NCBI GenBank assembly: GCA_009838845.1
Contig: VXRD01000062.1
Span: 1-43,834 of the forward strand
Direction: 5' to 3'
From: Gemmatimonadota bacterium
GTDB taxonomy: Bacteria; Latescibacterota; UBA2968
Length of the DNA: 43,834 bases
Shown one piece after another: positions 36,211-39,787 of the stretch. A program made the translations under genes and the position numbers. The notes below the pieces were generated by a model. That model was not told the origin of the DNA. It saw nothing but the letters and a program-made list of their open reading frames with translations, and did no database searches. How positions within the stretch are numbered: the first letter of the stretch is position 1; the number at the start of each line of letters is the position of its first letter.

Positions 36211-36831
36211 TCACTTCTTTTCCAGAACCGGTTTAAGCACGCGCCACACGGTTTCCGCTATAATCCGATGTCCCGCAGCATTGGGATGAATGCGGTCTGG
36301 CAGATTCAGTTCAGGAATCCCACCGACACCTTCTAACAAAAAGGGTATCAAAGGCACGCGATTCTTTTCAGATAGAGCAGGGAACACTGCGCGGAAAGCC
36401 GTCGTATATATATCTCCCAAATTTGGTGGTGCTTCAATACCCATAAGTATGATTTGAATATCTGGATACTTCTCTTTTGCGCGATCTATAATCCCCTGCA
36501 AATTTTGCTGCATTTCAGTCGTGGGAATCCCCCGCAAGCCATCGTTGCCCCCCAATGCCAGCACCAGCACATCGATTTTTCGCCGCAACAACCAGTTGAC
36601 CCGCCGCAACCCTCCCGCCGATGTTTCGCCACTCAGTCCGCCATTGATCACATCAAACGCCCACCCGAGCGAATCAATCTTTGCCTGAATCAGCGCGGGA
36701 AAAGCCTGCGTTTTATCCAGACCATAACCCGCAGTCAGGCTATCTCCCAAAAACAAAACCGTCTTGCGATCCTCTTCAGCATGAGCTGTCCATATCAATC
36801 CGAGTAAAACAACGATGAGAAACCGCTTCAT
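36211..36831 (-). CDS. tesA: Arylesterase / lysophospholipase L1-type SGNH hydrolase
   Basis: 206 aa with a signal peptide (about 1-18, ending AHA). All SGNH blocks are present: block I GDSLTAGYG (nucleophile Ser), block II Gly in GGLSGETSAGG, block III GGND (Asn) and block V DRIHPNAAGH (Asp and His). TesA-type enzymes hydrolyse acyl esters and thioesters in the periplasm. A GAGGA ribosome site precedes the ATG. It is convergent with the YbbA/YbbP pair, whereas in E. coli it is divergent from ybbA. Confidence 0.9.
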   Translation of the reverse strand: MKRFLIVVLLGLIWTAHAEEDRKTVLFLGDSLTAGYGLDKTQAFPALIQAKIDSLGWAFDVINGGLSGETSAGGLRRVNWLLRRKIDVLVLALGGNDGLRGIPTTEMQQNLQGIIDRAKEKYPDIQIILMGIEAPPNLGDIYTTAFRAVFPALSEKNRVPLIPFLLEGVGGIPELNLPDRIHPNAAGHRIIAETVWRVLKPVLEKK

Positions 36832-36876
36832 TTTTTATCCTCATTCATATCTATGAGCCCCAATCCATTTTCTCCC

Positions 36877-36905
36877 TTGACCCCAAATATAAGATTGGCT
36901 ATATT
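36877..36905 (+). promoter_or_regulatory. Sigma-70-type promoter upstream of structured RNA candidate
   Basis: TTGACC (36877-36882), exactly 17 bp, TATATT (36900-36905), among the best promoter matches in the window. Initiation is expected near 36912, with no protein start downstream for 400 bp, but with the structured element ending in a U tract at 37053. Confidence 0.65.
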
Positions 36906-36910
36906 TTTTG

Positions 36911-37053
36911 CCGACTGGCCTGTAAAAAAAACAATATTTTCGGAACGCCCAGCGTTTCAGCAGCGTTGCCATACCAGTCCACGAGGCACCTGCTTGTTCC
37001 TTGCGTCAAATTTCGCGATTTGGTGAAGGGACGGGTAGGTGCTTTTTGTTTTT
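36911..37053 (+). ncRNA. Candidate small RNA with 17-bp terminator-like hairpin
   Basis: Starting just after the promoter, the first bases GACTGG (36913-36918) pair with CCAGTC (36974-36979), enclosing a hairpin AACGC-CCA-GCGTT (36944-36956). The 3' part is a long hairpin: 36986-37002 pairs without a gap with 37026-37042 (17 pairs, four of them G-U), topped by a second stem CAAATT/GATTTG (37007-37022). It is followed by TTTTTGTTTTT (37043-37053). The G-U pairs would be A-C mismatches in the other strand, which points to a plus-strand transcript. Family unknown; it could be a stand-alone small RNA of about 140 nt or a leader attenuator of the permease at 37319. Confidence 0.6.
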
Positions 37054-37077
37054 CAGGAAAATTTCAATTTGTGACGC

Positions 37078-37207
37078 GGTTGGCCCGAAGGCAACCATTT
37101 CGTGTACCAAAAAGAAAGGCCCTCGCGCGAGTTCTTGGCGGGACGGCGCGAGGACCCCAGATCACACCGACAGGTACATGTGGTGTGTCAATGCTTTTGG
37201 GCCAACC
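37078..37207 (+). ncRNA. Candidate structured RNA with long closing helix and pseudoknot
   Basis: GGTTGGCCCGAAGGC (37078-37092) pairs with GCTTTTGGGCCAACC (37193-37207) over 15 contiguous positions, two of them G-U. Inside, hairpin A pairs CCTCGCGC (37121-37128) with GCGCGAGG (37146-37153), with an upper GTTC/GGAC stem. Hairpin B pairs CACACC (37163-37168) with GGTGTG (37182-37187), plus ACA/TGT. The hexaloop of B, GGTACA (37173-37178), is exactly complementary to TGTACC (37103-37108), forming a pseudoknot. No known family was recognised. A small mobile element with terminal inverted repeats is the alternative. No protein is supported in the 36832-37318 gap. Confidence 0.6.
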
Positions 37208-37237
37208 TCTTTTCCGTTGTGACGTAGCCGTTAAATG

Positions 37238-37266
37238 TTGTGTTTCAATAATATACAGATTTTATA
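37238..37266 (+). promoter_or_regulatory. Possible promoter of second orphan permease
   Basis: TTGTGT (37238-37243), 17-bp spacer, TTTATA (37261-37266), 53 bp before the ATG and after both structured elements. If real, the permease need not share a transcript with them. Confidence 0.35.
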
Positions 37267-37318
37267 GTTTGTGTGTTCCGCGAATTTGAGACATTTGAAA
37301 AAAAAGAAATAAAAACCT

Positions 37319-39787
37319 ATGCTAAAAAATTATATGACCGTCGCCATTCGACATCTGTTCAAGTACAAAATTTATACGCTTATGAACGTCTCTGGATTGG
37401 CGATTGGCATGGCCAGTTTTATTCTGATGCTGTGTTTTGTCCAGCACGAATTGAGTTACGATCGCTTTTATCCAAATTCGGATCGCATTTATCGGGTTAT
37501 TCGGGAAACGCGTTCAACCGGTGCAGACCAGGCACACTACGAGGCAAATACCTCCGGCGCGCTGGCCGATGCGCTGATGCGCGATTTCCCAGAAGTTCAG
37601 CGAGCGACGCGCATGGGGCGTCACGAGATTATGTTGAGGTACAAAGATAAATTTTTCCAGCAGAAGTTCGATCTCGTTGATGCGTCTTTCTTTGACATTT
37701 TTCAAATTCCCTTTCTAAAGGGCAACCCTCAAACCGCGCTTCAAGAGCCATATACCATTGTTTTGACTGAGAAGATAGCTCGAAAATATTTCGGCGATGA
37801 AAACCCCATGGGTAAAATTCTCACGGTTGATGGGCGGTTCTGGCATGGCGAATTCAAAGTGACGGGCATCTTGCGCGATTTGCCTACCAATACGAGTTTG
37901 CAAATCGACTTTCTACATTCAACTGTTGGTGACTCCTATATTCAAGACAAATGGACAAGATGGGAAGATGTGCAAAACCGTATGTTTGTCACATATATCT
38001 TGTTGCATCCAAACGCAAAATCTGCCGACTTGGAACGCAAACTGCCCGATTTGATCAACCGCTACATAGGTCCTCAAGTTCGCGCGACCACAACCTATCA
38101 CTTGCAATCCCTGAATCGTGTACATCTTTATTCAAATGTCGATTATGCTATTGAAACAGAAGAGAATATTCGACAAGCGATTGTCAACCGGGGCCATGGC
38201 ATACAGGGAGATATTCGACAGGTTTACATGTTTGCCTGTGCGGGAGTTGCCGTGTTGGCGATTGCGTGCATCAACTTCATGAGCCTTTCCACAGCCCGTT
38301 CAACGAATCGCTCTCGAGAAGTCGGCATGCGAAAGGTTGTGGGCGCACATAGGCAGCAGTTGATCCATCAATTTCTGAACGAATCTATTCTCATCGCGTT
38401 TTTTGCCCTGCCCTTGGCCGTTATGATAGGCAAAGCCGCTCTTCCTTTTCTCAACACCTTTCTAAATCGCGACCTGAATCTGAATATCCTCAACGATTGG
38501 ACGCTCTTATTGGGGCTAATAGCGGTCACCCTGTTTGTCGGTCTTTTGTCGGGAAGTTATCCTGCACTGTTTCTGTCGAAATTTCATCCTATTGAGGTGC
38601 TCAAAGGCACCGGAAAGATGAGAGGTCGAGAAACATCATTGCGTAAGGGCCTCGTTGTTATCCAGTTTGCGATTTCCATTTTGCTGATTGTTGCCACAAT
38701 AATGGTATCGCGCCAACTCGTGTATATAAAGACAAAAAAGCTGGGATTCAACAAAGAACACATTGTGGTTTTGCCCATCTTCATTACGCATCGGGGGGCC
38801 AGGACAGACCCCAATGAGCGTTTGGCTTCGCGTTATAACGTGGTCAAACAAGTCTTTTTGGAACACCCCAACGTGCTCAAGGCGACCGCTTATAATTTTC
38901 CTTTTGGTATGGGCACCAACCGTCTGCGTTTGATTCGTGCAGAAGGCATTCAAGATCGGGAAATTCACATGGCGTTTCAGCAAGCCGATGAGGATTATCT
39001 CGACACATTTGAAATCGAACTTCTTTCTGGTCGTAACTTCTCTACGGAAATGAGCAGCGATTTTACCGAAGCAATTCTTCTCAACGAGTCGGCAGTGAAA
39101 TATTTGGGCTGGAAGAAATCGCTTGACAAACAAATAGAAGTCGTGTTTTTGCCTCGCAAAGGGCGTGTAATTGGGGTAATTAAAAATTATCATCATCAAT
39201 CCTTGCGAGAAACAATCGGTCCTATGGGCATTTATATGCGAACGGGTTTTTATTCTTATCTCGCACTCAAAATTCAATCAAAAAATATTTTAAAAACGAT
39301 TGAATTCCTGGATAAGACCTGGCAGCGTTTTGTCCCCAACCGACCTTTCACGTTCTGGTTCATGGACGACCAACTGAATACGATGTATCAAAAGGAAGTG
39401 CGTCTTGGACAGGTACTTCATGCTTTTACTATCCTGGCCATTTTTATTGCTTGCCTCGGTTTGTTCGCCCTATCTGCTTATACTGCTGAACAGCGCACCA
39501 AAGAGGTCGGTATTCGGAAAGTTTTGGGCGCAACAGTATTGAATATTGTTCTGTTGCTTTCAAAGGATTTTGTAAAACTGATCCTCATCGCCAATCTGAT
39601 TGTCTGGCCTGTCGCTTATTATGCCGCACAACGCTGGCTTGAGAATTTTGCTTATCGGATTGATTTTGGAATAGGTGTTTTTTTGTTGAGTGGCGTTCTT
39701 ATGCTGATGATTGCTTTATGCACTGTGAGTTATCAAGCCATACGAGTTGCTGTATCTAATCCCGTGGATACTTTGAGAGATGAGTAA
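37319..39787 (+). CDS. FtsX/MacB-type ABC transporter permease (orphan, second copy)
   Basis: 822-aa paralogue of the permease at 5992, sharing the N-terminus (MLKNYMTVAIRHLFKYKIYT, SGLAIGM, HELSYDRFYPNSDRIYRVIR) and the C-terminal layout (YTAEQRTKEVGIRKVLGATV, SNPVDTLRDE). About eight TM segments with two large periplasmic domains. No ATPase is adjacent. No good ribosome site is seen; the start is set by similarity to the first copy. Unlike that copy, no sigma-54 promoter or GTGTCCG palindrome is found upstream, so the two paralogues appear to be under different control. Codons end more often in T or G than in the first copy. Confidence 0.87.
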   Translation: MLKNYMTVAIRHLFKYKIYTLMNVSGLAIGMASFILMLCFVQHELSYDRFYPNSDRIYRVIRETRSTGADQAHYEANTSGALADALMRDFPEVQRATRMGRHEIMLRYKDKFFQQKFDLVDASFFDIFQIPFLKGNPQTALQEPYTIVLTEKIARKYFGDENPMGKILTVDGRFWHGEFKVTGILRDLPTNTSLQIDFLHSTVGDSYIQDKWTRWEDVQNRMFVTYILLHPNAKSADLERKLPDLINRYIGPQVRATTTYHLQSLNRVHLYSNVDYAIETEENIRQAIVNRGHGIQGDIRQVYMFACAGVAVLAIACINFMSLSTARSTNRSREVGMRKVVGAHRQQLIHQFLNESILIAFFALPLAVMIGKAALPFLNTFLNRDLNLNILNDWTLLLGLIAVTLFVGLLSGSYPALFLSKFHPIEVLKGTGKMRGRETSLRKGLVVIQFAISILLIVATIMVSRQLVYIKTKKLGFNKEHIVVLPIFITHRGARTDPNERLASRYNVVKQVFLEHPNVLKATAYNFPFGMGTNRLRLIRAEGIQDREIHMAFQQADEDYLDTFEIELLSGRNFSTEMSSDFTEAILLNESAVKYLGWKKSLDKQIEVVFLPRKGRVIGVIKNYHHQSLRETIGPMGIYMRTGFYSYLALKIQSKNILKTIEFLDKTWQRFVPNRPFTFWFMDDQLNTMYQKEVRLGQVLHAFTILAIFIACLGLFALSAYTAEQRTKEVGIRKVLGATVLNIVLLLSKDFVKLILIANLIVWPVAYYAAQRWLENFAYRIDFGIGVFLLSGVLMLMIALCTVSYQAIRVAVSNPVDTLRDE

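Follow-up and report, generated by a model that had tools for sequence, protein, structure and literature searches.

A conserved structured element, most likely RNA, at several loci in one order of Latescibacterota

The described systems closest to the element considered here are the orphan riboswitch candidates and other cis-regulatory RNA motifs, the REP and REPIN repeats with their RAYT transposases, and the intrinsic terminators and terminator attenuators. REP elements usually exceed 100 copies per genome, according to the abstract of PMC2817692. A riboswitch-type feature, namely a conserved candidate aptamer with a covarying stem, is present in the element and is common to many other RNAs. 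At gathering threshold, the covariance models of Rfam 15 gave no matches in the window, i.e., the whole stretch of 43,834 nucleotides that was analysed, or in L020, L014, L103, L012, and L097, and in e-value mode all matches to the element and to L021, L022, L023, and L024 were far below gathering. The literature surveyed, consisting of the starts of abstracts, contained no description of the motif, which is no proof of its absence from print. Given the lack of Rfam gathering matches in the sequences searched and of a description in those abstract openings, the element is considered a new orphan structured RNA.

A previous sequence-only reading had proposed for this locus the architecture of a riboswitch, ribozyme, or regulatory RNA. 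A structured RNA core is borne out by covariation, recurrence, and constraint, while the full architecture is confined to this locus; no known family matches. Overall, it is very probable that the element is conserved and structured, and most likely an RNA.

Outer helix and pairing options at the window's locus

The outer closing helix, which belongs to this locus only, is formed on the forward strand by a 5' arm, GGTTGGCCCGAAGGC, at 37078–37092 and a 3' arm, GCTTTTGGGCCAACC, at 37193–37207, followed by TCTTTTCC. The 15 paired positions, with 100 nt between the arms and a 16th pair next to them, are present as previously described, and the two departures from a perfect inverted repeat are indeed G-U pairs (37087–37198 and 37090–37195). 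Within the window, a stem of this type (15 bp, at most two G-U pairs, loop of 95–124) occurs here alone; among 20 Markov-random windows, one contained such a stem. The 171-nt region folds with −68.2 kcal/mol (z −3.7; 0/200 dinucleotide shuffles as good); for the opposite strand the z is −2.3 (2/200 shuffles as good). Over nine aligned genomes, 132 of 135 cells of the outer helix are paired, and its changes are one-sided only, with the exception of the pair 37087–37198, which is G-U, G-C, or A-U depending on the genome. In the same nine genomes a local hairpin at 37078–37096 (+), alternative for the 5' arm, is kept about as well (61/63 cells paired).

Both inner hairpins described previously are present. 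Hairpin 2 (CACACCG/TGGTGTG; 37163–37187, +), whose loop holds the end of the conserved tail, is supported by fold and alignment; it is clear in the window, L020, L013, and L014 and is not found in L021 or L024, and hairpins 1 and 2 of the window together give a fold z of −3.0. The segment TGTACC at 37103–37108 (+) is the exact complement of GGTACA at 37173–37178, and this part of the proposed hexaloop pseudoknot stands. In the minimum-free-energy fold of the whole region, CGUGUACC pairs with GGUACAUG as a nested helix and hairpin 2 is dropped, and therefore the pseudoknot is one of two options. The closure of the hexaloop (ACA/TGT) depends on T37181, where all eight aligned relatives have C. 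The pairing itself is kept in 52 of 54 cells in nine genomes (L009 breaks two) and recurs, nested, in copy a of L022, at the syntenic locus of another genus; none of this type was found by eye at the remaining loci. The 15-bp closing helix and the GGTACA/TGTACC pairing are a trait of the window's locus and not of the recurring motif.

The region is flanked by the direct repeat TTGTGACG, exact at 37069–37076 and 37217–37224 as noted in the earlier reading; among control places in the window, 0.5% share at least eight bases in such flanks. Both flanking 8-mers are identical in two of nine aligned genomes, the window included, so that among the eight relatives L010 alone has them.

The recurring core and its distribution

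The part of the region that recurs is a module of 75–80 nt (37108–37187, +), delimited by the BLAST bounds of the second-locus matches and by column variability; similarity among dispersed copies ends near these borders. It contains hairpin 1 (37118–37155, +), defined by covariation over ten divergent copies, in which the variable stem P1 (37121–37128 with 37146–37153) is followed by a GA bulge and by P2 (37131–37133 with 37142–37144), which closes a conserved loop (37134–37141). The stem is variable and the loop is near-fixed (GAGUYNUUGGCGGGACG). In alignments A3 and A5 the hairpin is followed by a conserved 3' tail with consensus YYCCRRATCACACCGACAGGTA (37155–37176, +), that is YYCCRRAUCACACCGACAGGUA after hairpin 1, with exceptions in L014, L015, and others.

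The covariance check proposed together with the earlier reading gave a positive result. In the ten divergent copies, 89% of the cells of hairpin 1 are paired, against 24–59% in slid controls; cells with double changes number 11 versus a shuffled mean of 4.7 (reached by 0/500 shuffles), six of 12 pairs show double changes (reached in 17/500), and the covariation score is 0.394 versus 0.247 for shuffled alignments (0/500), where the shuffle counts are not probabilities because the ten copies are related. All ten copies keep P2 (GUY:GAC), with no variation in the loop core or in GGACG; of the 58 alignment columns, 20 are invariant and 12 nearly so. At the window's locus only 3/76 columns of the core (37108–37183) are variable versus 73/318 of the other noncoding columns (Fisher p 4e-5). 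This count is based on nine aligned genomes, with gaps not scored as variation, L011 set aside (5' half deleted), and 36860–36876 (9/17 columns variable) omitted from the flank total. In L011 (G005), which no longer has the upstream unit or the 5' arm of the outer helix, the core is unchanged. For single copies, the fold z is lowest in L024 (−5.3, with its terminator-like hairpin counted in) and highest at +0.9; L015 and L023 fold no better than shuffles and L021 barely does so (34/200 as good).

Three further features of the core were considered and set aside. A loop-tail pseudoknot (UUGGCGG with CCGACAG), drawn by eye, is broken without compensation in L014, L022b, and L024, and a promoter in the tail, with CCGACA as −35 box, was assessed by eye and has no consistent −10. 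At the A and B loci described below, one frame of the core also gives, by eye, a RPSRESLAGRRED-like peptide; the coding reading is rejected for the motif because the loop-to-tail frame differs among copies, with box spacings that differ by non-multiples of 3, and because L010 carries a one-base insertion just 5' of the core. In the B copies alone there are an SD-ATG and an open frame, and the coding reading may still apply to the B leader.

BLAST of the region against its own genome returned the window and one other place, 90% identical over 79 bases. The genome holds two strong copies, a weak one (26 bits), and a match at 21 bits that is probably due to chance; the many dispersed copies expected of a mobile element are not found. 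In 100 genomes, matches are present in 14, own genome included, and are of two kinds, covering either most of the region at a syntenic locus (A) or only about 37108–37188 elsewhere. The two-box pattern retrieved 19 stretches from the genome collection, 17 titled Latescibacterota or Latescibacteria, one Gemmatimonadota, and one Planktomarina; the last (L048) is protein-coding by eye and was dropped. The motif-bearing contig titled Gemmatimonadota is L037 (JAPPIE010000311.1), a label that may be a misassignment (G010 groups with the window's genus). The exact two-box pattern was absent from viral contigs, and no motif match was found in plasmid and phage records.

A search of 60 relatives under stricter filters with model R1, which derives from ten copies, gave matches of at least 50 bits in 14 genomes (11/11 of the genus, G013, G014, and G019), all of one order; outside the order the best match reached 23.8 bits (E 6e-4, G049). 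Outside-order matches below 26 bits were not counted as members, nor were L083, L086, and L088 (30–32 bits) and L091, L093, and L095, which by eye are protein-coding-like. L096, from G012 of the same family, scored 25.7 bits and is a possible divergent member, and the L012 match of 31.7 bits is a fragment of hairpin 1. A group of copies in convergent intergenic regions (C) is weaker, with 23–42 bits in eight genomes of the genus and one of 52 bits in G006; nine were fetched. Each motif-bearing genome has one to three credible copies. Strong matches are found only in the window's order of Latescibacterota, and in the genomes searched the motif is order-specific.

Gene contexts of the copies

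At the A locus, recD2 lies directly downstream of the element in eight of ten aligned genomes, and in the window and G003 it is preceded by a MacB/FtsX permease gene, so that the location before an FtsX-type permease, noted in the earlier reading, proves incidental. The permease gene (37319–39787 in the window) stands between the element and recD2 and is absent in the eight other aligned genomes, which indicates an insertion or a loss. The element is not clearly a recD2 leader because recD2 seems to have its own promoter (TTGTAA-17-TATAAT, by eye). G008 does not have the A locus type.

Upstream of the element are a promoter-like TTGACC-17-TATATT (36877–36905, +; 10 of 12) and a long near-perfect hairpin (36983–37045, +; fold z −4.2) followed by TTTTTGTTTTT, terminator-like by eye and possibly the end of an upstream transcript of ~145 nt; a rule-based scan of 36700–37400 listed no terminator-like site, this hairpin included. 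Sequence related to this upstream segment, which ends in the long hairpin and T run, is present in 11 of 60 genomes from three genera, own genome included, and searches for it as a tRNA, tmRNA, or Rfam RNA were negative. The segment 36877–37056 (promoter-like site, ~145 nt, and T run) is possibly a separate small RNA.

The B copies are found in 10 of 11 genomes of the genus. About 75 nt downstream of the copy come an ORF of 65 aa, for which Pfam gave no match, and an ECF-like sigma gene (PF04542, PF08281); on the 5' side the copy is preceded by an SD-ATG and, by eye, a pair of terminator-like hairpins. G019, from another family, keeps this arrangement from the terminator-like hairpins and SD-ATG through the element to the small ORF and sigma gene, with a next gene upstream that differs from that of the genus. 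The leader of the ECF-sigma operon, shared by the genus and G019, is the site conserved over the widest span. In the B leader of L020 (1280–1500), very short ORFs with good Shine-Dalgarno sites (MAC-stop, M-I-I-stop) are located 5' of the element, and these ORFs and the tandem terminator-like hairpins are largely kept, by eye, in ten aligned genomes. Small membrane-like proteins adjoin the ECF sigma gene in L020 (1645–1842, no Pfam match) and in L103 (3900–4100 and 4433–4774), and G019 has one on either side of it.

In G006 the C copy is flanked by a Rieske-type gene on one side and a sigma-cupin pair on the other, and is antisense to the pair and downstream of it; the other eight C copies match G006 in their flanks and have, on the opposite strand, a sigma gene no more than about 1 kb away. 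The ECF-like sigma genes of the B and C locus types are about 45% identical to each other. The C copies are followed by a terminator-like U-tailed hairpin whose 5' half can pair over 6 bp with the tail in all nine fetched, two of them via G-U changes, these sequences being closely related. Just 5' of the C copy in L085, L087, L089, and L090, a GTAGGGGCGGG...CCCGCCC-type hairpin stands in place of the hairpin 1 stem, as if an interspersed repeat had been inserted beside or into the motif.

Among the other copies, one in G014 (C732) lies about 25 nt before the start codon of an APH_6_hur (aminoglycoside-kinase-like) gene, another precedes a 43-aa ORF and a glyoxalase-superfamily gene, two in tandem precede a DUF4037-like gene (match below cut-off), and one is about 550 nt before an ABC-F-like gene; in L012 a convergent gene is next to the copy. 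By our own tally, a weak guide, a same-strand gene comes next in six of eight locus types.

Possible modes of action and comparison with known systems

The reading preferred here, to which we give close to an even chance, is that the core is an orphan structured RNA specific to one Latescibacterota order, with a mainly cis-acting role as a leader or attenuator element. The loop and tail would form the binding site for a ligand or protein; the tail could switch between partners, i.e., hairpin 2, the upstream TGTACC at the window's locus, or the 5' half of the adjacent terminator-like hairpin in the convergent copies; the switch would set read-through or translation of the next gene. Such a function would fit the locus conserved between families and several of the others, not all. 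Contexts are mixed, the gene next to the convergent copies and to L012 is not on the same strand, a single shared downstream function is absent, and hairpin 2 is not universal.

These mixed contexts would be expected of a trans-acting small RNA, or of a 3'-end or processing RNA, whose loop and tail would interact with a protein or with target mRNAs irrespective of gene position, a reading considered less probable. It would also account for the promoter-like site and terminator-like hairpin ahead of the window's copy, where a leader role is not clear, and for the terminator-like hairpin after the convergent copies; however, no promoter was seen by eye right before other copies, the G014 copy is only about 25 nt from a start codon, and the B copy holds its position before the sigma operon across families. 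That operon, with the C loci, could also suggest a DNA-level regulator site, e.g., an ECF-sigma-linked one, with an incidental hairpin, since two locus types adjoin ECF-like sigma genes in all 10 B and all 9 C copies. This is very improbable: the two conserved boxes are not at a fixed spacing, the sequence between them changes with its pairing preserved, and the C copies, as checked in G006, are downstream and antisense of the sigma-cupin pair.

The same compensatory stem changes, with loop and tail constant, tell against an interspersed palindromic repeat at the DNA level, REP- or MITE-like and moved by a transposase. This explanation, which includes the small mobile element left open in the sequence-only reading, is judged improbable. 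Within one genome, copies at unrelated loci reach 90% identity and end sharply, the window's copy lies within an exact 8-bp repeat, and a Y1 transposase domain is found in nine of 16 genomes searched, own genome included. However, motif-bearing genomes have only one to three credible copies, which are kept at orthologous, syntenic loci across genera, the flanking 8-mer repeat is not conserved, four of ten genus genomes searched (G003, G005, G007, and G008) carry the motif with no Y1 match, and a search next to four Y1 genes from other members of the genus found no motif (best E 0.22). The mobile-element reading is unsupported, yet the arrival of copies at unrelated loci is unexplained. Both the mobile repeat and the DNA site are weaker readings than the cis-acting leader or attenuator.

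A bolder and rather unlikely extension is that a riboswitch-like class might control ECF sigma factors from both sides, with the B copies as sense leaders and the C copies as sensors that, with their terminator, would gate an antisense transcript into the second sigma-cupin pair, and with further copies before resistance-like genes. The motif is compact and lineage-specific, in a group represented here by metagenome assemblies alone; its link to ECF-sigma and resistance-like genes would give a handle on regulation in hard-to-study bacteria, and the ligand or protein that it binds would be a new one.

In comparison with the known systems, the motif resembles REP and REPIN elements as a short palindromic intergenic unit at several loci, with a Y1_Tnp domain in some genomes, and differs from them in its low copy number and its maintenance by descent. 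Similarly to intrinsic terminators and terminator attenuators, the outer helix at the window's locus is followed by TCTTTT and the convergent copies abut a U-tailed hairpin; in contrast, terminators do not require the conserved loop and tail found in the core. With respect to orphan riboswitch candidates, the motif differs in the genes that follow its copies, which are not consistent (ECF sigma, APH_6_hur, glyoxalase, DUF4037-like, and ABC-F-like), and in the copies at convergent intergenic sites. It shares with these candidates and with other cis-regulatory RNA motifs a variable stem with a near-fixed loop and tail, and a small number of copies per genome, often located before genes.
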